Assembly: GCF_004793765.1 (NCBI RefSeq)
Contig: NZ_SRYM01000025.1
Coordinates: forward strand, 1 to 52,464
Source: Parabacteroides distasonis
GTDB taxonomy: Bacteria; Bacteroidota; Bacteroidia; Bacteroidales; Tannerellaceae
DNA: 52,464 bases
Reading direction: 5' to 3'
Below the pieces are notes generated by a model that saw only the letters and a list, made by a program, of their open reading frames with translations, ran no database searches and was not told the origin of the DNA. This document shows, piece after piece, positions 240 to 31,487 of the stretch (within the stretch, counting starts at the first letter, position 1; each line of letters starts with the position of its first letter). Both the position numbers and the translations under genes were made by a program.

Positions 240-1526
240 TTATCCGCCGAAATCGTCGAAATGTAACATCTCACGAGGTACACCCAAGTTATCCAGCATA
301 TTTTCCACGGCCTTTGACATCGGGCCCGGACCACACATGTAGTATTCAATATCTTCCGGAGCCTCGTGATCCTTTAAGTAAGTATCATGAATTACTTGAT
401 GAACAAAACCAGCCGTATATTTAACACCCGCAGCATCAGCGGCAGGATCAGGACGGTCAAGCGCCAAGTGGAACGTAAAGTTCGGGAACTCTTTCTCGAT
501 TTCCAAGAAATCTTCCAAATAGAACACCTCGTTCAAGGCACGTGCACCATAGAAGTAAGACATCTTACGATCCGTTGTCTTCAACGTCTTCGTCATGTGC
601 ATGATTTGGGCACGCAACGGAGCCATACCTGCACCACCACCAATCCACATCATTTCTCTCTTAGAATCGAAAATTGGGTGGAAATCACCATAAGGGCCAC
701 TCATAGTCACTTTATCACCCGGTTTCAATGTAAAGATATAAGAAGAAGCGATACCCGGCATCACATCCATGAAACCTACTTGTGGTTTCGGTTTGAACGG
801 AGGCGTAGCGATACGTACGGTCAACATGATACGGTCACCCTCAGCAGGATAGTTAGCCATAGAATAAGCGCGGATAGACGGTGAGTCGTTCTTACACTTC
901 AAATCGAATAAACCAAATTTCTCCCAAGCTGGCAAATACTCAGAACCAATCAAACTCTTATCGATATCCTTGTTATAATCCATTGAGTATGTAGGGATCT
1001 TGATTTGGGCGTAAGAACCCGGAATAAAGTCCATGTGCTCACCTTTAGGCAACGCAACGATAAACTCCTTGATAAAGGTAGCGACGTTCTTGTTACTGAT
1101 AACCTCGCACTCCCATTCCTTAACGCCAAATACCTCGTCCGGTACCTGAACGACCATATCCTCTTTCACCTTGCATTGGCAAGCCAAACGCCAATGATCT
1201 TTCACTTGTTTACGAGAGAAGAAACCTTTCTCAGTAGGTAGGATCTCGCCACCGCCATCAATAACTTGAGCACGGCACTGACCGCATTTACCACCACCAC
1301 CACAGGCTGAAGACAAGAAGATGCCACCACTCTGTAACGCACCTAACAAAGTTCCACCAATCGGAGTCTCAATATTTTTCTCTCCATTAACCTTCAAGCT
1401 TACATTGCCCGAAGGAACCAATTTTGCTTTGGCGAACAAAAGCAAACCGACCAAGATTAGCGTGATCAGCAAGAACACCACCGCACTGGCACAGATCGTA
1501 AGTCCGCTCGACATTAATAAAGTCAT
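240..1526 (-). CDS. nqrF: Na+-translocating NADH:quinone reductase subunit F
   Basis: This is the NADH-oxidising entry subunit of Na+-NQR. It passes electrons from NADH through FAD and a 2Fe-2S cluster into the membrane complex. The 428-residue protein has one N-terminal membrane helix (about 9-33), then a plant-type ferredoxin domain whose cysteines (C75, C81, C84, C116) match the spacing known in the family. A ferredoxin-reductase module follows, with the FAD-binding RAYSMANYP motif, the nucleotide-binding GGGAGMAPLRAQ motif and a C-terminal YYMCGPGPM stretch. It is the last gene of the operon, 28 bases after nqrE and just before the terminator. A start at internal Met5 is possible. Length and domains are normal for the family. 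Confidence 0.97.
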   Translation of the reverse strand: MTLLMSSGLTICASAVVFLLITLILVGLLLFAKAKLVPSGNVSLKVNGEKNIETPIGGTLLGALQSGGIFLSSACGGGGKCGQCRAQVIDGGGEILPTEKGFFSRKQVKDHWRLACQCKVKEDMVVQVPDEVFGVKEWECEVISNKNVATFIKEFIVALPKGEHMDFIPGSYAQIKIPTYSMDYNKDIDKSLIGSEYLPAWEKFGLFDLKCKNDSPSIRAYSMANYPAEGDRIMLTVRIATPPFKPKPQVGFMDVMPGIASSYIFTLKPGDKVTMSGPYGDFHPIFDSKREMMWIGGGAGMAPLRAQIMHMTKTLKTTDRKMSYFYGARALNEVFYLEDFLEIEKEFPNFTFHLALDRPDPAADAAGVKYTAGFVHQVIHDTYLKDHEAPEDIEYYMCGPGPMSKAVENMLDNLGVPREMLHFDDFGG

Positions 1527-1554: not shown

Positions 1555-2172
1555 TTAAATCTTCAGACCTGAGAAACACATGAATGCCATACCCATCAAA
1601 CCCGTGATGATGAAAGTGATACCCAAACCTTTCAATGGTTTGGGGACATTTGAATATGCCAATTTCTCACGGATAGCCGCCATTCCTACGATAGCTAGCA
1701 ACCAACCGATACCAGATCCTAAACCATAAACAGTAGCGACACCCACATTAGGGAACGCTTTTTGTTGCATAAACAGAGAACCACCCAAGATAGCACAGTT
1801 TACAGCGATCAGCGGCAAAAAGATACCAAGGGAAGCATACAAAGACGGAGAGAATTTCTCGACTACCATCTCGACCAACTGCACGAAAGAAGCGATAACG
1901 GCGATAAAGATAATAAACGCCAAGAAACTAAGATTCACCTCAGTATATTCCGGACCTAACCAGCTTAATGCACCTTCTTTCAATACATAATTCTCAAGCA
2001 TATAGTTAATCGGCAGTGTACAGAAAAGTACGAATGTCACTGCTATACCTAATCCTAAAGCGGTCTTCACGTTCTTTGAGACAGCCACGAAAGAGCACAT
2101 ACCCAAATAGTATGCGAAGATCATGTTGTCAACGAAGATCGAGCGGACGAATGTGCTTAATAATTGTTCCAT
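1555..2172 (-). CDS. nqrE: Na+-translocating NADH:quinone reductase subunit E
   Basis: Integral membrane subunit of Na+-NQR, 205 residues with about six hydrophobic helices. It pairs with NqrD in an inverted arrangement. C26 and C126 sit in the half-membrane helices, where the family supplies two of the four cysteines for the intramembrane iron-sulfur centre. A conserved VNCAILGG motif surrounds C126. It lies between nqrD (25 bases upstream) and nqrF, in the usual order. The homologous RnfA/RnfE proteins are similar, but the adjacent nqrA, nqrB and nqrF settle the assignment. Confidence 0.96.
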   Translation of the reverse strand: MEQLLSTFVRSIFVDNMIFAYYLGMCSFVAVSKNVKTALGLGIAVTFVLFCTLPINYMLENYVLKEGALSWLGPEYTEVNLSFLAFIIFIAVIASFVQLVEMVVEKFSPSLYASLGIFLPLIAVNCAILGGSLFMQQKAFPNVGVATVYGLGSGIGWLLAIVGMAAIREKLAYSNVPKPLKGLGITFIITGLMGMAFMCFSGLKI

Positions 2173-2197: not shown

Positions 2198-2827
2198 TTA
2201 ATTTTCTTGAAGTTCCTTGTTCTTAGCACGATGAACCCAAATAATAACAGCGATCACGATCAACGCCATCGGAGGCAAGATCATCAAACCATTGTTCACG
2301 TAACCCAGATCATAGAAAGCCTGCGGAATCACTTGGAAACCCAATAAGGTACCAGAACCCAGCAATTCTCGGAAGAAACCTACGATAATAAGAATAATCG
2401 CATATCCCAAACCGTTACCTACACCATCCAAGAACGATTCCCATGGGCCATTACCCAAGGCGAACGCTTCTAGACGTCCCATCAAGATACAGTTCGTAAT
2501 GATCAAACCGACAAATACGGAAAGCTGTTTGTTTACGTCATAAGCAAAAGCTTTCAATACCTCACTAACGATTGTCACCAAAGCGGCAACTACCACTAAT
2601 TGAACAATAATACGGATACGGTTCGGAATCGTATTACGCATCAATGAAATGATCACGTTAGCGAAAGCTACAACAGCCGTCACCGAAATACCCATCACGA
2701 TTGCCGGCTCAAGTTTTGATGTTACAGCCAACGCAGAGCAAATACCCAGCATCTGTACGACAACCGGGTTGTTAGCGCTCAACGGGCCTAACAGAACTTC
2801 TCTATTCTTTTCAGATAATAATCCCAT
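2198..2827 (-). CDS. nqrD: Na+-translocating NADH:quinone reductase subunit D
   Basis: Integral membrane subunit of Na+-NQR, 209 residues and about six helices. C30 (in LGICSALAV) and C113 (in TNCILMGR) are the expected ligands for the iron-sulfur centre shared with NqrE. The C-terminal WVHRAKNKELQEN tail is cytoplasmic-like. The start codon is 7 bases downstream of the nqrC stop, so the two are probably translationally linked. Nothing is unusual in length or motifs. Confidence 0.96.
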   Translation of the reverse strand: MGLLSEKNREVLLGPLSANNPVVVQMLGICSALAVTSKLEPAIVMGISVTAVVAFANVIISLMRNTIPNRIRIIVQLVVVAALVTIVSEVLKAFAYDVNKQLSVFVGLIITNCILMGRLEAFALGNGPWESFLDGVGNGLGYAIILIIVGFFRELLGSGTLLGFQVIPQAFYDLGYVNNGLMILPPMALIVIAVIIWVHRAKNKELQEN

Positions 2828-2834
2828 CTTCTAC

Positions 2835-3647
2835 TTAATTTTGTGAGGTCAAATATTTAACATAACCGCTCAAGCTATCAAAAAGCATAGCACTAACACC
2901 TTGACTTGTAATCGTACCACCAGAGATACCATCCACATAGTCTTGTCCGGCAACGCTTTTACCCGGCTTAACAACAGCGACTGACTTGAATTCTCCACTC
3001 ATGAAAATCTTCTTACCTTTAAATTTGTTGCTGAACGCTGGTTTAGAGATCTCAGCTCCCAAACCCGGGGTTTCACCTTGGTGGCTGAAGTCTGCACCAT
3101 AAATAGTATTCTTATCACTATCTACAGAGATGTAACCCCATAACGGACCCCAAAGACCTGCTCCATGCAAAGCCATGATATATTTCGGTTGACCATCTAC
3201 ATTTGCGATGAAAACCGGATATTGATGCTCAGCGGCAGCCTTAACTACATCCGTAGCGAAAGCGTCGCCTTCAACCTTCTCACCACTCTCGTTCACCAAG
3301 AAAGCATCCTTGATCAACTCGTTGTACTTAGCCTCAGCCTCAGAAGAAGAAACATTTACATTGATAGAACGCAGAATTTGCTGTCTCTTATCGTTGTCCT
3401 CGTTCTGTTTCTGGAAACTTCTCAATGACTGTGAAGTAAACGCCAATACGACAGCTACTAGCACAACCATCACAGCCGCATAAACAACCGTATAAACATT
3501 GCTATCCCGGTTTATGCCTTTCTTAGCGGTACCCTCCTCCTTGATTTCCTCAAATTCGGAAGCAGGAGCGGAACATACCGGACAAGTGTCAGGAGCCTTA
3601 TTTCCCTCGTGGACATAGCCACATACCTTACATTTATATTTAGCCAT
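2835..3647 (-). CDS. nqrC: Na+-NQR subunit C with an N-terminal rubredoxin-like domain
   Basis: The body is NqrC: one membrane helix (about 50-70) and a periplasmic FMN-binding domain. The flavinylation motif SGGTITS lies at about 242-248, with Thr245 the predicted FMN acceptor; a Gly replaces the usual Ala before it. The first ~35 residues are an extra rubredoxin-like domain with paired CxxC knuckles (C6, C9 and C22, C25), as in the C-terminal domain of rubrerythrin. They precede the helix, so they should face the cytoplasm, while the FMN domain faces out. There is no frameshift: both domains share one frame and the ATG sits 13 bases after nqrB. The canonical NqrC would start near residue 45. 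The domain may give the complex an extra electron exit or entry; that role is inference. Confidence 0.94.
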   Translation of the reverse strand: MAKYKCKVCGYVHEGNKAPDTCPVCSAPASEFEEIKEEGTAKKGINRDSNVYTVVYAAVMVVLVAVVLAFTSQSLRSFQKQNEDNDKRQQILRSINVNVSSSEAEAKYNELIKDAFLVNESGEKVEGDAFATDVVKAAAEHQYPVFIANVDGQPKYIMALHGAGLWGPLWGYISVDSDKNTIYGADFSHQGETPGLGAEISKPAFSNKFKGKKIFMSGEFKSVAVVKPGKSVAGQDYVDGISGGTITSQGVSAMLFDSLSGYVKYLTSQN

Positions 3648-3660
3648 ATTCCTTCTTACT

Positions 3661-4863
3661 TTATTTTATTACACGTTTCAATCTGCGAGAGACGTTAGCT
3701 TCCACAACATAATAGTCGATCAGCGGAGCGAACACGTTCATCAACAGGATAGCGAGCATCATACCCTCTGGATAACCCGGGTTCAACGCACGAATAATAA
3801 TGGCCATAGCACCTACAAGGAAACCATAGATATATTTACCTGTCTCCGTACGAGCGGAAGTCACAGGGTCTGTAGCCATGAACACGGCACCAAAAGCGAA
3901 ACCACCTAAGAACAAGTGATCCAGAGGAGATACACACATGGCGACCGTAGTACCGATCATATTAAAGATCAATGACATGAAAGCACCACCTACAAACACA
4001 GAAACCATTGTCTTCCAACTTGCGATACCTGTAACCAACAAGATTACTGCACCGATCAAGATAGCCAGTACAGAAGTCTCACCAATAGAGCCTGGGATCA
4101 AACCAAGAAATGCGTCCCAAGTAGAGATCGGGTTGCCTAATACGTCAACGGCTTGGAAAGAACCGATCATCTCCTTACCAGCGATAGCGACTTGTCCCAA
4201 CGGAGTAGCTCCGGAAAAGCCGTCAACCACTTGGCCAGCCCCAATACCAAACGTATCAGCCGTACGAACGAACACTTGATCACCAGACATTGCTGCCGGG
4301 TAAGCGAAGAATAAAAACGCACGTGTAACCAATGCTACATTAAATATATTATATCCCGTACCACCAAATACCTCTTTTGCGAAAACAACCGCAAAAGCAG
4401 TGGCTACAGCGATCATCCATAACGGAGTATCGACCGGTACGATCATCGGAATCAAGATACCGGAAACCAAGAATCCTTCTTGAATCTCTTCCTTCTTCAC
4501 TTGGGCAACAGCGAACTCTATACCCAAACCTACCACATACGAAACAATGATCTTAGGCAATACCGCCAAAAATCCAAAAATAAAAGTCATCAAAAATCCC
4601 GGATCAGCCCCTACAGCTAAATTGTGCTGATAACCGACATTATACATACCAAAAAGCAAAGCAGGCAACAAAGCGATGATAACCACGGTCATGGCACGCT
4701 TTGAATCAATACAGTCATGAATATGTACGCCCGTTTTAGAGGTCTCGTTCGGAACAAATAAGAATGTTTCGAAACCGTCAAAAACAGAACGGAACATCGC
4801 CAGCTTTCCGCCTTCCTCAAAGTTAGGCTTAATCTTGTCGAGATAATTCCTTAACGCTTTCAA
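3661..4863 (-). CDS. nqrB: Na+-translocating NADH:quinone reductase subunit B
   Basis: Large membrane subunit (400 residues) of Na+-NQR. It carries covalent FMN and riboflavin and contributes to the Na+ pathway and quinone reduction. The flavinylation motif SGATPLGQ is present, with Thr220 the predicted acceptor. About ten hydrophobic segments follow an N-terminal soluble stretch of roughly 55 residues. The start lies 23 bases downstream of nqrA. It resembles RnfD, but the N-terminal region and the neighbours fit NqrB. Confidence 0.97.
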   Translation of the reverse strand: MKALRNYLDKIKPNFEEGGKLAMFRSVFDGFETFLFVPNETSKTGVHIHDCIDSKRAMTVVIIALLPALLFGMYNVGYQHNLAVGADPGFLMTFIFGFLAVLPKIIVSYVVGLGIEFAVAQVKKEEIQEGFLVSGILIPMIVPVDTPLWMIAVATAFAVVFAKEVFGGTGYNIFNVALVTRAFLFFAYPAAMSGDQVFVRTADTFGIGAGQVVDGFSGATPLGQVAIAGKEMIGSFQAVDVLGNPISTWDAFLGLIPGSIGETSVLAILIGAVILLVTGIASWKTMVSVFVGGAFMSLIFNMIGTTVAMCVSPLDHLFLGGFAFGAVFMATDPVTSARTETGKYIYGFLVGAMAIIIRALNPGYPEGMMLAILLMNVFAPLIDYYVVEANVSRRLKRVIK

Positions 4864-4886: not shown

Positions 4887-6233
4887 TTAATTCATTTCCT
4901 TATACAACAGATTCAATCCATCGCGAACGATCTTTTGCAGCTCGATCTTGGAAGTGTCCACGAACTCGCAAAGAGCGAAATCCTCAGGAGCCACCTCATA
5001 GATACCTAAATTCTCCATCTTGTCGATATCGAACGCAATAATCGCTTTCAACAAATATTCCGGATAGATATCCATCGGGAACACTTTATCGTATTCATTA
5101 GACATGATCATGGCACGTTTACCACCTTTGATACGGGCATCAATCACATACTCCTTGCTAGTACCTAACCAGCTAAAGTAACTATGGCTAGCGCTGAACT
5201 GGTTAAAACGAGGCATAGCGAAACCTAAAAACTCATGCGTCTCATCGCCTTCTGGAATCACGGTGATCTGGTTATCATAAGCACCTAGGTAACCATCTAT
5301 ATTTACCTTGGTACCTGTCAAAACATTACCGCTGATAATACGGATATGTTCCTGTCCTAACACTTTACCGTTAACCAAGCTCTTAATCGTACAACCTGAA
5401 ATCGTTTTAACGTAGCCTCTCTCGGTAGTCTCGGAACCGGTAATAGCAACCATACGGCTGAAATCAGCCACACCCTTGTTGAACAAGCGTCCGATAACAA
5501 TCACGTCCGCCGGATTAACCGTCCAAACGACCTCACCCTTGTTAACGGGCTTGATATGATTGATCTGCACACCAACGTTCGCTGCGGGATGCGGACCTTC
5601 TACTTCCACGATCTCCACACCTTTCATTCCGCTCACGACAGAACCACTTCTTACACCCACATACACTTTTCCATTCGTTAATTTAGCTAGAGCGTTTAAT
5701 CCAGTCTGGAAATCAGCCTCCTGACCTTTTACGATAAAATCGAAGTTTGGAGCCAACGGAGCGGAGTAAAAAGCCGAAACGAAGATATCACGCGGAGTAT
5801 CCAATGGAGCGGCGATGATATCGTATGGGCGTTGCTTGATAAACGGCCACATACCAGCGTTCAGAAGCGCCTCTTTCACCTCTGCTCCCTGTAGGGATGC
5901 CACGTTCTTCTTACCAAACTCCTCATACTCGATCTGCGCATCCGGCTTCACAACGATGCTTAGCACCTTACGCTTCTCTCCTCGGTTTACGGCAGTTACC
6001 TCGCCACTGACCGGCGAAACAAACTTGATCTCGGGGCGGTTCTTGTCAATCATCAGTACAGAACCGGCTTTGACTTTTTCTCCTACTTTCGCAACAACTT
6101 TGGGGAGAATACCGTTATAATAATCGGGGACGATCGCGTAAGACTCGCTCTTGCCGCCGTTTAACAGTACATCCGAAGCTTTGCCCTTCAGATTAATGTC
6201 TAAACCCTTTTTAATCTTAATCACATTTGCCAT
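4887..6233 (-). CDS. nqrA: Na+-translocating NADH:quinone reductase subunit A
   Basis: Peripheral cytoplasmic subunit of Na+-NQR, 448 residues, first gene of the operon. I chose the ATG at 6233 (protein starts MANVIKIKKGLDINLKG) because that is the family's usual N-terminus. The frame stays open 26 codons further, but that extension is not family-like and would overlap the promoter. Conserved features include the biotinyl-lipoyl-like N-terminal repeat (PVSGEVTAVNRGEKR), the GPHPAANVGVQINHI motif and a C-terminal CEFVDTSK segment. A promoter box lies about 36 bases upstream. Confidence 0.96.
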   Translation of the reverse strand: MANVIKIKKGLDINLKGKASDVLLNGGKSESYAIVPDYYNGILPKVVAKVGEKVKAGSVLMIDKNRPEIKFVSPVSGEVTAVNRGEKRKVLSIVVKPDAQIEYEEFGKKNVASLQGAEVKEALLNAGMWPFIKQRPYDIIAAPLDTPRDIFVSAFYSAPLAPNFDFIVKGQEADFQTGLNALAKLTNGKVYVGVRSGSVVSGMKGVEIVEVEGPHPAANVGVQINHIKPVNKGEVVWTVNPADVIVIGRLFNKGVADFSRMVAITGSETTERGYVKTISGCTIKSLVNGKVLGQEHIRIISGNVLTGTKVNIDGYLGAYDNQITVIPEGDETHEFLGFAMPRFNQFSASHSYFSWLGTSKEYVIDARIKGGKRAMIMSNEYDKVFPMDIYPEYLLKAIIAFDIDKMENLGIYEVAPEDFALCEFVDTSKIELQKIVRDGLNLLYKEMN

Positions 6234-7663: not shown

Positions 7664-7678
7664 ATAAAATAATTGAGC

Positions 7679-8647
7679 ATGAAAACGAGACGTACTGTTA
7701 TCATTACCGTGTTGTTAGTCGGGGGACTTCTCTCGACCGTTCAAGTCATGCCTAAAAATCCATTGTTAATAGGCGAAAGGTTATTTCCGCACGGAGGATG
7801 GATACAGGTGATACTTGCCATGCTGTACGGTGGTTGGCTTTGCTATAAGATGCAAGATCGGCAAGAACGCCCTAAATGGAGAAAACGAGCGTGGTTGTTA
7901 TTCTCGATCGTTTTTTTCGGGCAACTTGCTCTAGGGATTTTTGCCGATCCTATTTTCCTTATGACCGGAAAACTGCATTTACCGATCCCTGCGGTAATCT
8001 TGGCCGGACCGCTTTATCGCTTCGAGGGATTATTCATGCCCATACTTTTTATCAGCACCTTATTACTATCCGGTCCCGCTTGGTGTAGCCAGCTTTGTTA
8101 CTTCGGGGCATTCGACGCATGGAGTGCCCGGGGAAAATTGGAGCGAAAAAGGTTCCCCTATCACAAGCAAATGCGATACAGCATATTATTTCTGGTTATG
8201 TTGGGGGCCATCCTACTCCGAATATTCGGAGCGAGCGGCAGGATAGCCACCGCTTTTGGAATAGCGGTCGGAGTTATCGGCCTACTTGTCATGCTATTGT
8301 TTTCCAGAAAGAGACGGAAGATGGTGCATTGCAGTAGTTATTGTCCGATCGGGACTTTAGTGTCTTTCCTCAAATACCTCTCTCCTTTCCGGGTACGACT
8401 GACCACGGATTGTTGCCATTGCATGGCTTGCACAAACGCTTGCCGTTATGATGCCCTACATAAAGAAGAGATCGAGAAGGGAAAGATCGGCTATACCTGT
8501 ACCTATTGCGGAGATTGCCTCTCCGCTTGCAAGCACGGGGCTATAGAATATCATTTCCTGGGATTGCGCCCGACTACTGCCGAGCGCCTATGGATCGTCG
8601 TAACGGTCGTATTACATACTTGCTTCTTGATGATCGCACGAATCTGA
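7679..8647 (+). CDS. NapH-like membrane-bound 4Fe-4S protein
   Basis: Polytopic membrane protein of 322 residues with several hydrophobic helices and a C-terminal double 4Fe-4S ferredoxin domain. Both clusters show the full CxxCxxCxxxC pattern (CCHCMACTNAC and CTYCGDCLSAC). Two upstream cysteine pairs (CSQLCYFG and CSSYCPIG) recall the CxxxCP motifs of NapH/CcoG-type electron-transfer proteins. I chose the ATG at 7679; a TTG two codons earlier is less likely. Members of this group pass electrons between quinol and periplasmic or cytoplasmic reductases, but no reductase gene is adjacent, so the partner is unknown. Its last 36 bases overlap the end of the convergent guanine deaminase gene. Confidence 0.75.
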   Translation: MKTRRTVIITVLLVGGLLSTVQVMPKNPLLIGERLFPHGGWIQVILAMLYGGWLCYKMQDRQERPKWRKRAWLLFSIVFFGQLALGIFADPIFLMTGKLHLPIPAVILAGPLYRFEGLFMPILFISTLLLSGPAWCSQLCYFGAFDAWSARGKLERKRFPYHKQMRYSILFLVMLGAILLRIFGASGRIATAFGIAVGVIGLLVMLLFSRKRRKMVHCSSYCPIGTLVSFLKYLSPFRVRLTTDCCHCMACTNACRYDALHKEEIEKGKIGYTCTYCGDCLSACKHGAIEYHFLGLRPTTAERLWIVVTVVLHTCFLMIARI

Positions 8648-9946
8648 GCCGTATACTTGCTTGCCCATTATATAAGTACATACCGTATTCCGGTCATCGC
8701 CGAGGGTTTGCAGGCCAAACAGCTTATTCTCAATCGTCCATTTATCTCTCGAACGAAGATACTCCATACGCAATTTCTGGACAGAGGTAGCGGCATAATC
8801 CACGACTATGAAATCCGCTTCACGGCCAGGGAGGAAACTTCCGATTCGGTCGTCCAACGATAAGGCCCGTGCAGAGCCTAGCGTACATTTATAGATAGCC
8901 TCCAAAGCTGTCATCGGATAACCGTTCAACTGTTGTACCTTATAGGCCTCTCCCATCGTACGCCACATAGAGAAAGATGTACCCGCACCGACATCTGTCG
9001 CCAAGGTAGTACGTACGCCGTAACGGTTCGCTTCCTTCATATCGAATAATCCGCTTCCTAGGAAAAGGTTTGAGGTCGGACAATGGGCAATAATGCCTCC
9101 CGTTTCCCCCAACCGCTTATATTCCCGATCGGTTAGATGGACACAATGCCCGAATATCGAACGATCGGTCAGCAACCCAGCACGCTCATAGACCTCCAGA
9201 TAGTCCGCATGACCGGGACTGAGCGATAAGACAGATTCAATCTCTCCCAGATTCTCCGAAAGATGTGTCTGTATATAGGTATTGGGATATTCGGTATGTA
9301 AATGACCGGCAGACTTTAATTGATCCGGCGTACTGGTTATGGCGAAACGGGGCGTGATCACATAGTGATTCCGTCCTTTTCCGTCCCAATCCTCGATTAA
9401 GCTACGGCAGGCCAACTCACCCTGATGCGTGGTATCCATCAGATAATCCGGAGCATTCCGGTTCATCATCACCTTTCCTGCCAAGATACACATATTATAC
9501 TCCGTAGCCACGGAAAATAATGCGGTTACGGAAGCAGGATGAACCGTGGCATAAGCGGCACAAGTCGTAGTTCCGTTCTTCACCAGTTCCTTCACGAAAA
9601 AACGAGCGATATCTTGTGCGTATTCCACGGAAGAAAAAGCGTCCTCGGTGGGAAACGTATATTCATCCAGCCAATCCAGAAGTTGCTTGCCATACATTCC
9701 CAGTATCTCCGACTGGGAGAAATGGATATGGGAATCAATAAAGCCGGGTGTAATCAATTTACCGGAATAGTCTGTCACCGGGAAATCCGGATAACGGGAA
9801 CGCATCTCCTCGAACGGCCCCGCCTCTACAATCTTTCCATCAACAACAGCCAATCCCCCATCCTCAAAATAGCGGTAAGCCTCCACATGATCCAGCGGGG
9901 AAGCGATCAAATAGAACACTTCTCCCCTATATAAGTTCTTCATCAT
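8612..9946 (-). CDS. guaD: Guanine deaminase-like amidohydrolase
   Basis: Predicted zinc amidohydrolase of 444 residues that would hydrolyse guanine to xanthine and ammonia. The PGFIDSHIHFSQ motif supplies the HxH zinc ligands and is close to the guanine deaminase signature. THLSE, GHCVHL and ATDVGAG give the remaining histidines and the catalytic aspartate. The HCPTSNLFLGSGLF segment is also typical. I chose the ATG at 9946 over a TTG two codons upstream. It follows the CDF transporter gene by 18 bases, probably in one transcript. Related deaminases of other purines or of S-adenosylhomocysteine cannot be excluded by motif alone. Confidence 0.85.
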   Translation of the reverse strand: MMKNLYRGEVFYLIASPLDHVEAYRYFEDGGLAVVDGKIVEAGPFEEMRSRYPDFPVTDYSGKLITPGFIDSHIHFSQSEILGMYGKQLLDWLDEYTFPTEDAFSSVEYAQDIARFFVKELVKNGTTTCAAYATVHPASVTALFSVATEYNMCILAGKVMMNRNAPDYLMDTTHQGELACRSLIEDWDGKGRNHYVITPRFAITSTPDQLKSAGHLHTEYPNTYIQTHLSENLGEIESVLSLSPGHADYLEVYERAGLLTDRSIFGHCVHLTDREYKRLGETGGIIAHCPTSNLFLGSGLFDMKEANRYGVRTTLATDVGAGTSFSMWRTMGEAYKVQQLNGYPMTALEAIYKCTLGSARALSLDDRIGSFLPGREADFIVVDYAATSVQKLRMEYLRSRDKWTIENKLFGLQTLGDDRNTVCTYIMGKQVYGSDSCDHQEASM

Positions 9947-25071: not shown

Positions 25072-26892
25072 TTATGCTTTTCTGAATGGCTCATAAGCCT
25101 TACCTCCACCTTCGAACTCTGCGTTCTTGTAATATTCCACGAAGATCAAACGAAGTGGGTGTACCAAGGAGCTGATCGTACAAAGAGCGATATTGATAGA
25201 GTGACCCACTAACAAGATCAACAACATACTGATCGCACGTGCCACGATATTCATACCGTCTGTCATCGTAACCGCCAACGTATTAAATACGCCACCCAAG
25301 ATGGAACCGGTCAGACCGATAGCGAACAAACGAATGTATGATAACGTATCACCCAGCAATCCGGAGGCCATATTATACGTGTTCCAAAGTCCGGTACCAA
25401 AGTTCAGGAATACGTTCTTGCCTGGTGTATTGTACAAATAAGCGACAACCAGTCCTAGAATGGCGATTCCGTAACATACCATAACGACAGCGTTTGGCAA
25501 GTGAACGTTCAACATCGGAAGACCGAACGCCAATGCCAAGGATATGATCACGAACACCCAAGCGAACGGAGCGATACTGTGTTTCGTTCCTTTCTGTATC
25601 TTGATCTTGTAAGCAGCGACACATTTACCGAATATGATCTGTACCAAACCGATGACAATAGAGAATGTCATCAAGTTATCGCTATTCACAAAGTAGTTCT
25701 TGATCTTTGACAAGGCCGGGATATCCGCCAAGGCCACTCCGAAGAAAGATCCCGTACAAGTACCCACCAACAAGGCTGCGAAACCTAAATACTGGAACAA
25801 GGTCAGATAAGGCTTGAAATCCGGGTTCACCTTCTTCTTCAAGATCGTACAAGCGATCATGACCAGTAAACCGTATCCACCATCACCGAAACAAAGTCCG
25901 AAGAACAGCATAAAGAACGGGGCGAACAACGGGGTCGGATCAAGTTCACCGTAATTAGGCAAGGAGAACATCTTCGTGATAGGCTCGTACAGCTTACTGA
26001 ATTTATTATTCCGTAACTTGATAGGCACCTTATCCCCATCCTCGATCTCTAATTGCTGGAAGAAATAACCTTGCTTATCTAGCTCGTACTCCAAGGCCGG
26101 AGTGTTCTCCATCGGCACCCAACCTTCCAACAACATGAGCTTATCACCCGCTTGCCGGTCTGTCTGCACTAACGCATTAAAAAGATTAAACTCGTCCTGC
26201 AGGCTCTTATCGAATTCCTCCAACGTTTTATAATCCTCCACGGCACGATGTTTCAGCTCATCCTCCACATGCTGGATATCCTTGATACGCTGATCCAGAC
26301 GGGCACGCAACTTCGCCAATCCTTGAACTGGCATCTTCGGACGTTCAGCGTCTATATCAATCAAGGTACCTTCCTTGGTGATCGTGATAAAATACGTTAC
26401 CGATTGGAAGTTATTGATCAGAATGGCGTTATACAACACGCTCCATTCCGGCTCGTACTTAGCGGTAGGACAGGTAAAGAACGTAACATCATATCCCGCT
26501 CTTTTCAGACGGTTGATATTCTGATAACTGAACTCACCCCATAATTCCATATAAGCCAGATCCTTCTCGATTGCTTGCTTGGAAGCAATCAATTGCGCTT
26601 TCTTATCTTGCAATTCCTCTATCTTACGCACCAACTCCAGGCCTTCCTCTTTCGTCAACTCACGAACCGAGGCGAACTTAACGTCTTTCTTCGCCACATG
26701 GAGGTTCTTAAAGTAACGCATCAGCGTATTGATCTGTTTACGCTCAGCCAGAAGCTCTTGCAACCTCTCGTTATCCATCACGGAGTTTGTCTCCTTGATA
26801 TGTACGACACCTAAGTCACGAAGCGTAGAAAGGAACGTATCATACTCCTTATGGTACACCATAAAAGCATATTTACTCATCTTTACTATCAT
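25072..26892 (-). CDS. V-type ATP synthase subunit I (a subunit)
   Basis: Stator membrane subunit, 606 residues. The N-terminal half is cytoplasmic and partly coiled coil (LQDKKAQLIASKQAIEKDL region). The C-terminal half from about residue 310 has seven or eight helices. The essential arginine facing the rotor ring is in LSYIRLFAIGL, and a GHSINIAL segment follows. The ATG overlaps the last bases of the subunit D gene (ATGA), so the two are translationally coupled. Confidence 0.95.
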   Translation of the reverse strand: MIVKMSKYAFMVYHKEYDTFLSTLRDLGVVHIKETNSVMDNERLQELLAERKQINTLMRYFKNLHVAKKDVKFASVRELTKEEGLELVRKIEELQDKKAQLIASKQAIEKDLAYMELWGEFSYQNINRLKRAGYDVTFFTCPTAKYEPEWSVLYNAILINNFQSVTYFITITKEGTLIDIDAERPKMPVQGLAKLRARLDQRIKDIQHVEDELKHRAVEDYKTLEEFDKSLQDEFNLFNALVQTDRQAGDKLMLLEGWVPMENTPALEYELDKQGYFFQQLEIEDGDKVPIKLRNNKFSKLYEPITKMFSLPNYGELDPTPLFAPFFMLFFGLCFGDGGYGLLVMIACTILKKKVNPDFKPYLTLFQYLGFAALLVGTCTGSFFGVALADIPALSKIKNYFVNSDNLMTFSIVIGLVQIIFGKCVAAYKIKIQKGTKHSIAPFAWVFVIISLALAFGLPMLNVHLPNAVVMVCYGIAILGLVVAYLYNTPGKNVFLNFGTGLWNTYNMASGLLGDTLSYIRLFAIGLTGSILGGVFNTLAVTMTDGMNIVARAISMLLILLVGHSINIALCTISSLVHPLRLIFVEYYKNAEFEGGGKAYEPFRKA

Positions 26893-27512
26893 ACCTCGGC
26901 CTCCTCTTTTTCTTCTTTTGCCTTACGTTTCTCCTGATTGGCTCTCATGATCTTCTGTGAGGACTTAGAAAGACTCTCCTCGTCTTCCATAAACCGTTTC
27001 ACCTTACGGATCGCATCCTTATAACCCGGAATCTGTACCTTCTCAAACAGGTTCACCTTCTGAGTGGTCTTTTTCCTAGCATGCTCCAACAACTCCAGCT
27101 TCATGCCCGAGAACTCCGCCTCAATACCGGTACGAGCCAGCTTTTTCAGCAACTCGATACCATCCGTATACCATGCGGGAGCATTAAAGAGACTATAGTG
27201 TCCGATCTCGAACTCGATCTCGTCCAATAACGGGATGATCACGCCGGCGATCTTCTTCGTGGAAAGCGTAACATCCTTCACGGAGATCAACTCCGGATTG
27301 AACTCGTTCCACAAAGCCACCATATTCTCGTAACTCTGAATCTCTCGTTCTAGCTGAAGTTCCAATTTATTCACTTCGTCCTTGGTCCGCTTCACCTCGA
27401 TACGCAGGGCGCTCTCCTTGCTCTTGATCGTAGGCAGGGAGCGTTCACGCATCTTCAGTTGCTTTTCCAATTGCTGAAGAGAGGTTTTATTATATTGAAA
27501 CTTTATTGCCAT
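26889..27512 (-). CDS. V-type ATP synthase subunit D (central stalk)
   Basis: Central rotor shaft of 207 residues, mostly long antiparallel coiled coil. The N-terminal KFQYNKTSLQQLEKQLKMRE and the C-terminal FEKVQIPGYKDAIRKVKRFMEDEE segments are characteristic. It links catalytic AB rotation to the K ring. Eleven bases separate it from subunit B; its stop overlaps the subunit I start. Confidence 0.94.
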   Translation of the reverse strand: MAIKFQYNKTSLQQLEKQLKMRERSLPTIKSKESALRIEVKRTKDEVNKLELQLEREIQSYENMVALWNEFNPELISVKDVTLSTKKIAGVIIPLLDEIEFEIGHYSLFNAPAWYTDGIELLKKLARTGIEAEFSGMKLELLEHARKKTTQKVNLFEKVQIPGYKDAIRKVKRFMEDEESLSKSSQKIMRANQEKRKAKEEKEEAEV

Positions 27513-27523
27513 GTTTATTTAAT

Positions 27524-28840
27524 TTACTTCCAGTACTTATCAACCAATCCTTGTTTGATATTTACCTCCTCCGGGCTGAAATATCTAGCGAACAATCCCC
27601 AAGCTACGTCCAGCATCTCGGTCGTATCCAAGTTTACGTCGATAGCCAACAACTTAGAAGAATAATCCTTGGCAAAAGACAAGGTACGGTTGTCGTAGTC
27701 GGTCAAGTCGAAACCGTTCTCCAGCTTGGTCTTAGCATTGGCGGCATCGGCATACAAACGTACGGCGGCGTTCATTACCTGTGGATGATCCTCACGGGTC
27801 TTCTTTCCGGTTACCAGCTGTTTCAAACGAGACAAGCTTCGGAACGGATCGACGATTACCTTACCCACATCGCTATCACGACGCAAATACAACTGACCTT
27901 CCGTGATATAACCCGTATTATCGGGTACGGCATGCGTGATATCACCACCTGATAAGGTCGTTACGGCGATAATCGTGATGGAACCTCCCGCTGGGAATTG
28001 AACAGCTTTCTCGTAAATCTTCGCCAAATCCGAATACAAGGAACCTGGCATAGAATCCTTAGACGGGATCTGATCCATACGGTTTGATACGATCGCCAAG
28101 GCATCGGCGTAATTGGTCATATCGGTAAGCAGTACCAAGACCTTCTCGTTCTTCTCCACAGCAAAATACTCAGCGGCACTCAATGCCATATCCGGGATCA
28201 AGATACGCTCTACGGACGGGTCCTCGGTCGTGTTGATAAAACTAACGATACGATCTAGAGCACCGGCATTACTAAATGTATTCTTAAAGAACAGGTAGTC
28301 GTCGTTTGTCATACCCATACCTCCCAAGATAATCTTATCGGACTTCGCACGCAAGGCTACCATCGCCATAACTTGGTTGAAAGGCTGGTCGGGGTCGGCG
28401 AAGAACGGGATCTTCTGACCGGTTACCAAAGTATTATTCAAGTCGATACCGGCGATACCCGTAGCGATTAATTCAGACGGTTGCTTACGACGTACCGGGT
28501 TCACGGACGGACCACCGATCTCGACCTCGCGTCCCTCGGGGATCGGGCCTCCATCAATAGGCTCGCCATAGGCGTTGAAGAAACGTCCGGCTAACTGGTC
28601 ACCTACTTTCAAAGAAGGGGCCTTCCCCATGAACACCACCTCGGCATTCGTACGGATACCTTCCGTTCCGGAGAATACCTGCAACGTCACCTCGTCGCCG
28701 ATAATCTTTACCACCTGAGCCAGCTTTCCGTCTACAGAGGCCAACTCATCATACCCAACTCCCGTTGCTTTCAGCGAACAGGTCGCTTTTGTGATCTGGG
28801 TAATCTTCGTATATATTTTTTGAAATGCTTTTGTTGCCAT
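27524..28840 (-). CDS. V-type ATP synthase subunit B (non-catalytic)
   Basis: Non-catalytic hexamer subunit, 438 residues. It has the FNAYGEPIDGGP segment, PFFADPDQPFNQVMAM in place of a working Walker A, VLLTDMTNYADAL and the GSITIIAVTTLSGGDITHAVPD region. The absence of a P-loop identifies B rather than A. Seven bases separate it from subunit A. Length is slightly short, normal for Bacteroidota. Confidence 0.95.
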   Translation of the reverse strand: MATKAFQKIYTKITQITKATCSLKATGVGYDELASVDGKLAQVVKIIGDEVTLQVFSGTEGIRTNAEVVFMGKAPSLKVGDQLAGRFFNAYGEPIDGGPIPEGREVEIGGPSVNPVRRKQPSELIATGIAGIDLNNTLVTGQKIPFFADPDQPFNQVMAMVALRAKSDKIILGGMGMTNDDYLFFKNTFSNAGALDRIVSFINTTEDPSVERILIPDMALSAAEYFAVEKNEKVLVLLTDMTNYADALAIVSNRMDQIPSKDSMPGSLYSDLAKIYEKAVQFPAGGSITIIAVTTLSGGDITHAVPDNTGYITEGQLYLRRDSDVGKVIVDPFRSLSRLKQLVTGKKTREDHPQVMNAAVRLYADAANAKTKLENGFDLTDYDNRTLSFAKDYSSKLLAIDVNLDTTEMLDVAWGLFARYFSPEEVNIKQGLVDKYWK

Positions 28841-28847
28841 AACTCTT

Positions 28848-30605
28848 TTAATTTTCGATTCTCTCCTTCAAAAGTTCATCCAGTTCCGTATTAAACTTCT
28901 TGAATTGGTCACTCTCATATTCCGAATAGTTCATCTGCTTAAAGATGTTGATCATCTTCTTGAAGTAGTCCATAACCTCTAAGAAGGTATCAAACTTAAA
29001 CTCTGAACGGCAAACGTTCACGACCCTATCCAGCATGAATTCCTGACGTCGCAACGGAGTAACCGCATCGATGGCATCGAAAGCATCCTGTTGCAAGATC
29101 ACGAAGTCGATCAACTCGGACTTCCAGAATGTAACGTGATACTCGACAGGCACACCATCATCACCCAAGATATTGATTTGCTCGGAGATCTCCTTTCCAC
29201 GCAACATACGGGTCTTGATCTCGTTTACTTTCTCGATCCATTCCGGGGAAATATGTTTAGCGATGTATTCCTGAAACTCGGGATACTCAAGATATTTGGA
29301 ATAACTATCAATCGGGTTTACGGCCGGATAACGTTTACGGTCGGCACGCTCTTGCTCCAAGGCATAGAAACAACGGGCCACCTTCTTCGTATTCTCGGTC
29401 ACCGGCTCCTTCAAGTTACCACCGGCCGGCGATACCGTACCGATGAAAGTGACAGAACCTGTAGCGTTGTTATTCAAATGGACGAATCCCGCACGAGCGT
29501 AGAAGTTCGCCACGATAGCAGACAAGTCCATCGGGAAAGCATCTGGTCCGGGCAACTCCTCCAAACGGTTGGACATCTCACGCAAAGCCTGTGCCCAGCG
29601 GGAAGTAGAGTCGGCCATCAACAGAACCTTCAAGCCCATGCTGCGATAATACTCGGCGATGGTCATCGCCGTATATACGGACGCTTCACGAGCGGCTACC
29701 GGCATGTTGGATGTATTGGCGATAATGATCGTACGTTCCATCAATTTTCGTCCCGTATGTGGATCTACCAATTCCGGGAACTCCGTAAATACCTCCACGA
29801 CCTCATTCGCACGCTCACCGCAAGCAGCGATAATCACTATATCCGCTTCCGCTTGTTTAGAGATAGCGTGCTGAAGCACCGTCTTGCCCGTACCGAACGG
29901 ACCGGGGATAAATCCGGTACCACCCTCAACGATCGGGTTCACAGTATCTATCGTACGAACGCCCGTCTCCAGCAATTTGAATGGACGGGGCTTTTCCTTA
30001 TAACAAGTGATGGCTTTCTTTACCGGCCATTTCTGGATCATCGTCATGTTTACGTCCGTGCCATTTTCGTCCGTAAGGACAGCCATCGTATCATTGATGG
30101 TATATTGTCCGGCTGGAGCCACCGATTTCACAATATAAGACCCCTTGAACTTAAAGGGGACCATAATCTTATGAGGTTGGAAATTCTCGTCCACCTCTCC
30201 CAGCCAATCACCGGCGCTCACGGTATCGCCCGCTTTAGCCAAAGGCTTGAAATCCCACTTCTTATCATTGTCCAACGCAAACGTATAATCGCCACGTTTC
30301 AAGAATACACCTTCCATCTTGTCCAAGTCGTTCTGCAAACCGTCATAGTTGCGGGACAACATACCCGGACCTAGCGTAACTTCCAACATATGCCCTTGGA
30401 ATTCAGCCTCGTCGCCGACACGCATACCACGTGTGCTCTCAAATACTTGTACAAAGGCATTCTTTCCTATCACCTTGATTACTTCCGACATCAGCTTCAC
30501 GCCTCCGACAGAAATGTAACAGATCTCATTCTGAGAAACCGGACCATCCACCTCTACAGTTACTAGGTTGGATACGATTCCCTTTACAATTCCTTTCGTA
30601 GCCAT
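28848..30605 (-). CDS. V-type ATP synthase subunit A (catalytic)
   Basis: Catalytic subunit, 585 residues. It has the Walker A motif GPFGTGKTVLQ (about 238-248), the catalytic-glutamate region ACGERANEVVEV, and LLMADSTSRWAQALRE for Walker B. The bulge domain typical of V/A-type A subunits lies between residues 110 and 200. It may hydrolyse ATP to expel Na+ or H+, or run in synthesis mode. It starts 3 bases after the DUF2764 gene. Confidence 0.96.
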   Translation of the reverse strand: MATKGIVKGIVSNLVTVEVDGPVSQNEICYISVGGVKLMSEVIKVIGKNAFVQVFESTRGMRVGDEAEFQGHMLEVTLGPGMLSRNYDGLQNDLDKMEGVFLKRGDYTFALDNDKKWDFKPLAKAGDTVSAGDWLGEVDENFQPHKIMVPFKFKGSYIVKSVAPAGQYTINDTMAVLTDENGTDVNMTMIQKWPVKKAITCYKEKPRPFKLLETGVRTIDTVNPIVEGGTGFIPGPFGTGKTVLQHAISKQAEADIVIIAACGERANEVVEVFTEFPELVDPHTGRKLMERTIIIANTSNMPVAAREASVYTAMTIAEYYRSMGLKVLLMADSTSRWAQALREMSNRLEELPGPDAFPMDLSAIVANFYARAGFVHLNNNATGSVTFIGTVSPAGGNLKEPVTENTKKVARCFYALEQERADRKRYPAVNPIDSYSKYLEYPEFQEYIAKHISPEWIEKVNEIKTRMLRGKEISEQINILGDDGVPVEYHVTFWKSELIDFVILQQDAFDAIDAVTPLRRQEFMLDRVVNVCRSEFKFDTFLEVMDYFKKMINIFKQMNYSEYESDQFKKFNTELDELLKERIEN

Positions 30606-30608
30606 AAT

Positions 30609-31487
30609 TCATTTTATATTGTTTCTTTTAAATTCTTCCAACGCATTCTCACTACCCATCTTCATGGCACCTACCAATTCACGGAAAGTCTTCTCGCCTC
30701 TGGCCTTATCCAAAGTTACCCAGCGTTCTATCATCTCCAATTTCAATAAATAAGCGAATACACTCTCTATGTCGAACGTCTTGAAGAAGGTATTATCGTC
30801 CAGCCATTTCCATTTCAAAAGATCGATTTTCTTCTCACGAACGATCAGATCAGTCTCTTCGGCGATGCGTTGTAACTCGGGCAAATATTCTACGGAATCG
30901 CCCAAGCCGAAATCACGGGCGTTCGACGTACGGATATTTTCTGCTATCTCATTATGCCCCACGATATAATTGGTCTTATCAAATCCATATTTACGGCAAG
31001 TGATCGCAGTAAGAACATTGTTGATATTCAGGTTAAGCTCGAACCAGTCGGCCACGAACTTATTCCCACATTTCATAGCATATTCATAATATAACGCAGC
31101 TAAGCGGTCTTCCCATGATATATATTCTTTTTCATTTTTGGTGTCTTTAGCCTCTTCAGCTAGATACAGTTTAAAGAATTCCACGAAATAAGGCGGGAGA
31201 TTATCATTTTTGGGAATTTTTTCCTCATCCTTCAACGCTTTATATAAAGTATTGAATTCATCATACGTTATTCTTCCTCTTGGATCCGGATCGGAGTCCG
31301 GTCTTTTAGCATGAGCCAGCAGATTTATATTATCATATTTCAAATAAAATAAATCAATCAACTTTTTATCCTTAGAAGATAGCATATCCTCTATTTCCGT
31401 CCGGAACTCACAGACCGAATAGGCTAGTTTGCTATCATCCAACGCTATGTTAGGAAGTCCGGAGATTAAGTAGTAATACTTACTCAT
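30609..31487 (-). CDS. DUF2764 protein of the V-type ATPase operon
   Basis: Soluble, mainly helical protein of 292 residues with conserved YYYLISGLPNI at the N-terminus and FDIESVFAYLLKLEMIERW near the end. DUF2764 genes sit between subunits E and A in Bacteroidota, spirochaete and chlamydial V-ATPase operons, where the canonical subunit C gene is missing. A role as a C-like link between rotor and stalk is plausible but unproven. It lies 1 base after the subunit E gene. Confidence 0.85.
   Translation of the reverse strand: MSKYYYLISGLPNIALDDSKLAYSVCEFRTEIEDMLSSKDKKLIDLFYLKYDNINLLAHAKRPDSDPDPRGRITYDEFNTLYKALKDEEKIPKNDNLPPYFVEFFKLYLAEEAKDTKNEKEYISWEDRLAALYYEYAMKCGNKFVADWFELNLNINNVLTAITCRKYGFDKTNYIVGHNEIAENIRTSNARDFGLGDSVEYLPELQRIAEETDLIVREKKIDLLKWKWLDDNTFFKTFDIESVFAYLLKLEMIERWVTLDKARGEKTFRELVGAMKMGSENALEEFKRNNIK

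Follow-up and report, generated by a model that had tools for sequence, protein, structure and literature searches.

NqrC, the subunit considered here, is known from structures of the Na+-NQR of Vibrio cholerae, where its single membrane helix carries an FMN domain on the periplasmic side (PMC10643135, PMC9325719). The helix contacts TMH3 of NqrD and TMH1 of NqrF (PMC9325719), and the ferredoxin domain of NqrF is flexibly linked, mobile and able to approach NqrD/E (PMC10643135). For Parabacteroides distasonis, the structure 3LWX is that of the flavin-binding domain of NqrC (PMC4348036). In Bacteroides fragilis, NQR provides over 65% of the NADH:quinone activity and an NQR deletion mutant is unable to compete in the mouse gut (PMC7002350).

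NADH electrons are also linked to rubredoxin in other described systems. The class F flavodiiron protein FdpF of C. difficile contains a short rubredoxin domain between an NADH-oxidising domain and a diiron core (PMC6033852). In Bacteroides and Clostridium, rubredoxin-dependent reductases of O2 and H2O2 are proposed to receive NADH electrons through NADH:rubredoxin oxidoreductase (NROR) and a free rubredoxin, and for B. thetaiotaomicron it is reported that rubredoxin electrons do not come from NROR alone (PMC5210497). C. difficile is said to encode no free rubredoxin, and its reverse rubrerythrins were reduced in vitro by an E. coli rubredoxin domain together with its reductase (PMC7482061).

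We analyzed a 52,464 nucleotide stretch of P. distasonis DNA (the window). It contains an intact nqrABCDEF operon on the minus strand, running from position 6233 to 240 according to a Pfam scan (Table 1), with nqrC located between nqrB and nqrD. The nqrC product scores 199.3 bits against the NCBIfam nqrC model TIGR01938 (cut-off 144), and its FMN_bind domain (PF04205) covers residues 164-257 (E=5.9e-17). This domain includes the motif SGGTITS, whose T245 and T247 are invariant in 40 aligned rows. The protein thus resembles NqrC of V. cholerae (7xk3/8a1t) and of P. distasonis (3lwx) in its membrane helix, FMN_bind domain, flavinylation-type motif and place in the operon. The 3lwx chain is 94% identical to residues 73-270 of the window NqrC (rmsd 0.9 Å over 196 columns) and covers only the part equivalent to these residues. 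The alignment with V. cholerae NqrC begins only at residue 46 and shows no rubredoxin domain in that protein.

Table 1. Features of the nqr operon in the window, and free-standing rubredoxin-like ORFs of family f42
Feature	Position	Strand	Basis or remark
nqrA	4890..6233 (stop codon not included)	-	Pfam NQRA domains
nqrB	3661..4863	-	PF03116
nqrC CDS with N-terminal rubredoxin-like domain	2835..3647	-	270 aa, stop included, ATG start
Short rubredoxin (RUBY_RBDX) domain of NqrC, residues 1-36, C6/C9/C22/C25	3540..3647	-	PF21349 and AF2 model
Linker of NqrC, residues 37-49, variable length	3501..3539	-	pLDDT <50 at 38-47; model and alignment
NqrC membrane helix, residues 50-72 (model helix runs on to 93)	3432..3500	-	AF2; V. 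cholerae NqrC alignment
FMN-binding domain of NqrC, residues 164-257, SGGTITS, periplasmic	2877..3158	-	PF04205; 3lwx
nqrD	2198..2827	-	PF02508; product D in P. distasonis public record
nqrE	1555..2172	-	PF02508; product E in P. distasonis public record
nqrF, NADH/FAD/[2Fe-2S] subunit	240..1526	-	Pfam Fer2, FAD_binding_6, NAD_binding_1
Free rubredoxin-like ORF and reverse-rubrerythrin-type ORF	L224:10095-10837, L261:4021-4763, L263:3801-4524	-	f42, three read

The first-pass annotation of this DNA had noticed a rubredoxin-like domain fused in frame to the N-terminus of NqrC. This is borne out by an open frame of 270 amino acids, in which residues 4-33 match the Pfam model RUBY_RBDX (PF21349) with 54.4 bits (E=8.3e-15, cut-off 26.5). 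The two cysteine pairs C6/C9 and C22/C25 lie within MAKYKCKVCGYVHEGNKAPDTCPVCSAPASEF and are separated by 12 residues, the spacing of short, rubrerythrin-type rubredoxins. Over 35 residues, it shares 57% identity with the N-terminal domain found in the genome's own reverse rubrerythrin. It shares with the corresponding domain of rubrerythrins and reverse rubrerythrins the spacing and the Pfam model, and its model superimposes on 1b71/1ryt within 0.6-1.1 Å. Unlike rubrerythrins, however, NqrC is tethered to a membrane redox pump and lacks the four-helix diiron domain: the Pfam scan of the 270 amino acids detected no ferritin-like diiron domain.

Structure prediction is in line with the sequence matches. 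The AF2 model of the whole NqrC (40 rows) has a mean pLDDT of 87.7, with about 86-90 over residues 1-30, less than 50 at residues 38-47, a helix at residues 50-93 and more than 90 in most blocks of the FMN domain. When residues 1-42 were modeled alone, from an alignment of 25 rows of which one is the reverse rubrerythrin L002, the mean pLDDT was 86.5 and reached 91-94 over residues 1-30. This predicted fold superimposes on rubrerythrin 1b71 with 0.6 Å over 33 columns. Its top PDB matches in a structure search are rubredoxins and rubrerythrins, and the best Foldseek E value of 0.0075 (probability 1.00) is only modest, as expected for a model of 42 residues. The full-length model also matches 1ryt/1b71. 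Thus, the N-terminal domain is predicted to adopt the rubredoxin fold.

The fused gene is not an accident of assembly, since the same open frame recurs in 29 further genomes of the genus (71-97% identity), three of which are single contigs (G004, G011, G014), and in an annotated public P. distasonis record. The latter has the same nqr gene order and the same nqrC start and length, and its product is 99% identical to the window NqrC over the first 96 residues, but its annotation names only subunit C. Moreover, nqrB and nqrD matches flank nqrC in 45 of the 46 fused loci with more than 2.5 kb on each side, some of these loci representing one genome counted twice. In L079, a record titled Tannerella, a fused nqrC (4001-4825) lies outside an intact operon; unrelated genes are found upstream of it, and about 3.5 kb of other ORFs separate it from a partial nqrD.

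A fused frame could still yield an ordinary NqrC, if translation began at a later codon. That NqrC normally begins just before its helix, as had been assumed, is right for the unfused relatives, whose proteins typically start with MN[RT][DN]SN, the sequence found at the junction between linker and NqrC in the fused proteins. In the window, the codon at this ancestral start position is ATA. At this position, 7 of the 76 distinct fused sequences have ATG, 15 have TTG, 1 has GTG and 53 have another codon. Because of the ATA in the window and the mixed codons elsewhere, an internal start is not maintained and a later start, by which the mature protein would lose the domain, is unlikely. The long form is therefore very probably the product of nqrC.

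To describe the conservation of the domain we used 100 fused loci, 76 of them with distinct first 60 residues; several loci represent the same genome twice. The four cysteines are present in 76/76 sequences, a circular result since they served as the criterion for calling a sequence fused. Other residues of the rubredoxin site are nearly as constant: G10 and P23 in 76/76, P19 in 75/76, and Y11, G15 and F32 in 72/76, and position 4 is aromatic in 76/76. The ratio pN/pS, calculated at pS values of 0.53-0.86 that are near saturation, was 0.17 for the domain, 0.33 for the linker, 0.18 for the helix, 0.18 for the coil and 0.19 for the FMN domain in 24 Parabacteroides sequences. The corresponding values are 0.15, 0.40, 0.32, 0.40 and 0.33 in 14 sequences of the family f42, and 0.29, 0.52, 0.25, 0.56 and 0.42 in 23 sequences of f60. 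As judged from these substitution patterns, the rubredoxin domain is under purifying selection and the linker less so. Finally, we looked for eroded copies in an unfused set of 156 loci (137 distinct sequences), 153 of which could be placed by motif. None of the 153 has two cysteines in an N-terminal extension, and thus no decaying copies of the domain were seen.

Two groups of atypical N-termini were observed along the way. Four divergent fused NqrC, all from f60 (L229:3473-4363, L232:4130-4918, L233:3717-4442, L249:3133-4041), have CGQ/CGK instead of CGY and EA instead of EG. Three of them were scanned (L229, L232, L249), and RUBY_RBDX scores best among the Pfam models; these domains may have been acquired separately or may represent derivatives that bind zinc. 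Some unfused NqrC, from T. forsythia and others (L100, L108, L110, L157, L128, L213, L214), carry short Lys/Glu-rich N-terminal extensions, which contain no cysteine and resemble the end of the fused linker. They could be remnants of the fusion.

How far the fusion extends was determined by searching NqrC homologues, as the first-pass annotation had suggested. In a whole-protein search of 38 genomes of the genus, 30 have a fused NqrC with a match starting at query residue 1-3, six an unfused one (G005, G008, G012, G018, G019, G031), and in two (G009, G025) no nqrC was found at the threshold. For the wider survey we used a profile of 13 fused N-termini and counted rows that cover the whole profile; the samples share genomes, and their denominators include genomes without a readable nqrC. 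With this profile, fused NqrC was found in three Bacteroidales families (10/20 genomes of f19, 17/81 of f42 and 25/81 of f60), in 8/393 genomes of an order-wide Bacteroidales sample, and in 4/395 and 2/395 genomes of class and phylum samples, every such match being inside the order. Named carriers include P. massiliensis, P. acidifaciens, P. chinchillae, P. faecalis and P. bouchesdurhonensis, besides records titled Tannerella and Dysgonamonadaceae. Unfused NqrC occurs in P. goldsteinii, P. faecis and T. forsythia. The patchy occurrence across the genus, the three families and the order sample means that the domain is neither unique to the window nor general in Bacteroidales, where it might have been a common feature of all NqrC. 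Since it is absent in most relatives, it is dispensable for the pump.

Trees were used to ask how often the fusion state has changed. All of them are quick trees with SH-aLRT support only. A tree of NqrC alone, for which 177 of 215 distinct rows were retained (58 of them fused), requires at least 23 changes between fused and unfused, 15 of them forced by well-supported branches. A multi-family tree of the five other subunits (69 rows, 30 fused) requires at least 15, of which 12 are forced. A five-subunit tree of 44 mostly Tannerellaceae rows (20 fused) requires three, of which two are forced; L079, whose nqrC is accompanied only by the partial nqrD, was left out of the 45 loci chosen for it. 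As the 44-row tree needs only three changes, we prefer the multi-family five-subunit tree over that of NqrC alone, and by this tree the fusion state needs at least 12 switches across Bacteroidales. The 44-row tree suggests that Parabacteroides gained the domain once, after the split of P. goldsteinii, with an unfused pair nested inside, and that the fused Tannerella and Dysgonamonadaceae are separate fused lineages. Even near-twins differ: the fused L245 (from the same genome as L202) and the unfused L246 lie 0.012 and 0.021 from their fork. Any single switch may have been a gain or a loss.

Loss by simple deletion was considered and is not shown by these data. The 5' DNA of P. goldsteinii, P. 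faecis, L067 and L069, compared by eye with that of fused Parabacteroides, looks like the unfused type (L064) and not like a fused gene from which a piece was removed, and the comparison of L202 and L246 for a deletion scar is ambiguous. We also compared, in 30-base steps, the DNA of two cross-family pairs (L049/L194 and L122/L186) that were selected because their domains are among the most similar. Identity is 83-97% within the initial ~90 nt of nqrC, against 33-80% elsewhere. A systematic test of 68 of the 76 sequences, those with a readable nqrB tail, found 5/1543 cross-family pairs in excess after Bonferroni correction, compared to 2/1543 for the nqrB-tail control, the pairs not being independent. 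In this test L105 and L111 were put in f60 by assumption, whereas the operon tree places them next to Tannerellaceae. Horizontal spread of the domain, or recombination of the nqrC 5' end, is thus suggestive only.

A possible source of the domain was observed in f42, where a free-standing rubredoxin-like ORF of 38-39 amino acids immediately precedes an ORF of 181-183 amino acids that has the domain at its N-terminus (Table 1). In the hit list of this family, a short free copy just upstream of a rubrerythrin-sized ORF occurs in 8/81 genomes. In L224 (G851), such a pair of free copy and reverse rubrerythrin lies ~4 kb from the fused nqrC; this is the one genome in which a reverse rubrerythrin was read near nqr. 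In L244, from the related genome G876, the hit list had led us to expect a rubrerythrin beside nqr, and we found only a 37-aa free rubredoxin-like ORF near 9000-9100 (minus strand), at a distance of ~4 kb from its fused nqrC. By eye, the preceding frame resembles the end of a Fur/PerR-type regulator, and there is no rubrerythrin directly after the ORF. It is possible that the short free domain beside the reverse-rubrerythrin-type gene is the source of the NqrC cassette. A CxxC pattern scan for separate copies of the domain next to an unfused nqrC gave one match, in L181 (35 aa), which is not rubredoxin-like by eye.

The earlier suggestion of a link to rubrerythrin is plausible insofar as the window genome encodes two rubrerythrins, by domain order one reverse, with the domain at the N-terminus as in NqrC, and one canonical. 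The link is nevertheless unproven, since rubrerythrin-sized PF21349 genes are present whether NqrC is fused or not and since a fused NqrC does not go with loss of free rubredoxin. Two rubrerythrin-sized PF21349 genes occur in five of the six unfused genomes of the genus, and the sixth, which is 75% complete, gave no match. A search of the window's contig for further RBDX genes found none. Free rubredoxin (PF00301) is absent in 33/38 genomes of the genus, including the window genome, and within the genus it was found in 3/30 fused versus 1/6 unfused genomes (p=0.53). Nor did f60 provide evidence that the fusion replaces free rubredoxin, as PF00301 is present in 19/25 fused versus 47/56 other genomes (p=0.54).

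The position of the domain can be deduced from the V. cholerae structures. A single membrane helix and a periplasmic FMN domain (PMC10643135, PMC9325719) put the N-terminus of NqrC, and with it the rubredoxin domain, in the cytoplasm, in agreement with the first-pass annotation. The contact of the NqrC helix with TMH1 of NqrF should place the domain near NqrF. The reading we put forward, tentatively and as somewhat short of probable, is that NqrC carries a short rubredoxin, tethered on the cytoplasmic face of the pump next to NqrF, which redirects NADH electrons to cytosolic rubrerythrins or similar enzymes. The domain would bind iron in an [Fe(SCys)4]-type site and would be held next to the anchor helix of NqrF by the flexible linker. 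The swinging [2Fe-2S] domain of NqrF could then reduce it, in the order NADH, FAD, 2Fe-2S and rubredoxin, and the rubredoxin would pass the electrons to a soluble acceptor, most likely the cell's own rubrerythrins or a different protein that reduces O2 or peroxide. In this way NQR would gain an optional, non-pumping electron outlet once O2 or peroxide appears. We infer both the iron binding and every electron-transfer step in this route. That the domain acts as a tap draining NADH electrons past the pump, and is in addition a cassette of ~100 bp which is repeatedly added and removed, perhaps via interfamily recombination confined to the 5' end, is an extended version that we regard as unlikely.

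The motifs CRNC and CAH of 1ryt contain what we take to be the potential-raising Asn and His of D. vulgaris rubrerythrin. Residues of this type are absent in all 76 fused NqrC (positions 8 and 27, with one gap at 27), in which the domain differs from D. vulgaris rubrerythrin, but present in the canonical rubrerythrin of the window genome. A downhill order from NADH via NqrF and the NqrC domain to rubrerythrin is therefore plausible. The Asn and His near the cysteines have been related to the high potential of D. vulgaris rubrerythrin, and potentials of rubredoxin sites in rubrerythrins are given as +185 to +280 mV (PMC6033852). The short rubredoxin domain of C. difficile FdpF, which carries NADH electrons towards the diiron centre, has a potential of about -110 mV, a value called unexpected by its authors (PMC6033852), and this precedent may fail to carry over to the NqrC domain. 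FdpF resembles the fused NqrC in joining a short rubredoxin domain to an NADH-oxidising flavoprotein (PMC6033852). Its acceptor, however, is on the same soluble chain, whereas the proposed reductase of NqrC, NqrF, is a separate, membrane-anchored subunit. The proposed route of NADH electrons to rubredoxin-dependent reductases is likewise shared with the NROR system (PMC5210497), from which NQR differs in that NqrF is a [2Fe-2S]/FAD protein in a Na+ pump and in that the rubredoxin of NqrC is not free.

Short CxxC-CxxC domains can also be zinc ribbons, and the domain might therefore be a structural or docking knob, holding Zn or Fe, that stabilizes or positions the ferredoxin domain of NqrF or the NqrC helix and transfers no electrons to the outside. 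NqrF is indeed its neighbor, the domain is dispensable in most relatives like an add-on, and the divergent L229, L232 and L249 also match zinc-ribbon models, weakly and below RUBY_RBDX, the best of the Pfam models. What makes us consider this reading doubtful is that conservation falls on residues typical of a rubredoxin site, that RUBY_RBDX scores far above its cut-off and that the structure search returns rubredoxins and rubrerythrins, even if the Zn-substituted rubredoxin 1irn shares their fold. The patchy distribution would suit a neutral passenger left by an accidental fusion. Yet the domain is under purifying selection of much the same strength as the rest of NqrC, the 153 unfused loci showed no decaying copy and the domain has appeared recurrently, so that this reading is highly improbable and already largely refuted.

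Two further readings keep a redox role for the domain. Exposed single-iron cysteine sites can be oxidised, and the domain could be a redox or O2 sensor that switches NQR activity when, in the presence of O2, its site becomes oxidised or gives up its metal. Recurrent gain and loss would fit a tuning to habitat, but no conserved effector region was seen, and the linker is variable and of low confidence in the model; we deem a sensor rather improbable. Quite improbable is an electron inlet, in which a soluble reductant would feed NQR and the menaquinone pool through the domain. Menaquinone has a potential of about -75 mV. The potentials of the FdpF and rubrerythrin sites (PMC6033852) are near or above that of menaquinone, which leaves an inlet with little or no driving force, even though the geometry would suit electron flow both ways and oxidised NqrD/E is open towards the cytoplasm (PMC10643135).

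Our analysis thus concerns a known enzyme subunit, NqrC of Na+-NQR, in a variant architecture that is undescribed in the literature as far as searched: no description of an NqrC-rubredoxin fusion was found in the accessible parts of that literature, and the word rubredoxin is absent from the main text of four NQR papers (PMC12174285, PMC10739449, PMC4014512, PMC7002350), though domain databases may well show the architecture. The fused NqrC is real, conserved and patchy, and its proposed role is plausible. If a rubredoxin fixed to NQR does act as we suggest, NQR would be a branched enzyme, and some relatives could deliver NADH electrons directly to rubredoxin-dependent detoxification. Because the domain has come and gone repeatedly, there are natural matched pairs for comparison, for example L245/L246 or P. 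goldsteinii versus P. distasonis.

The surroundings of the nqr operon contain other genes of note. Beyond a DUF5103 gene, and divergent from nqr, positions 7673-8647 (plus strand) encode a probable membrane 4Fe-4S protein (Fer4_5, Fer4), whose neighbors are also found in the public P. distasonis record. About 20 kb from the Na+-NQR operon, at 25072-30605 on the minus strand, lie V/A-type ATPase genes (V_ATPase_I, ATP-synt_D and two ATP-synt_ab proteins in Pfam), together with a DUF2764 gene at 30609-31487.
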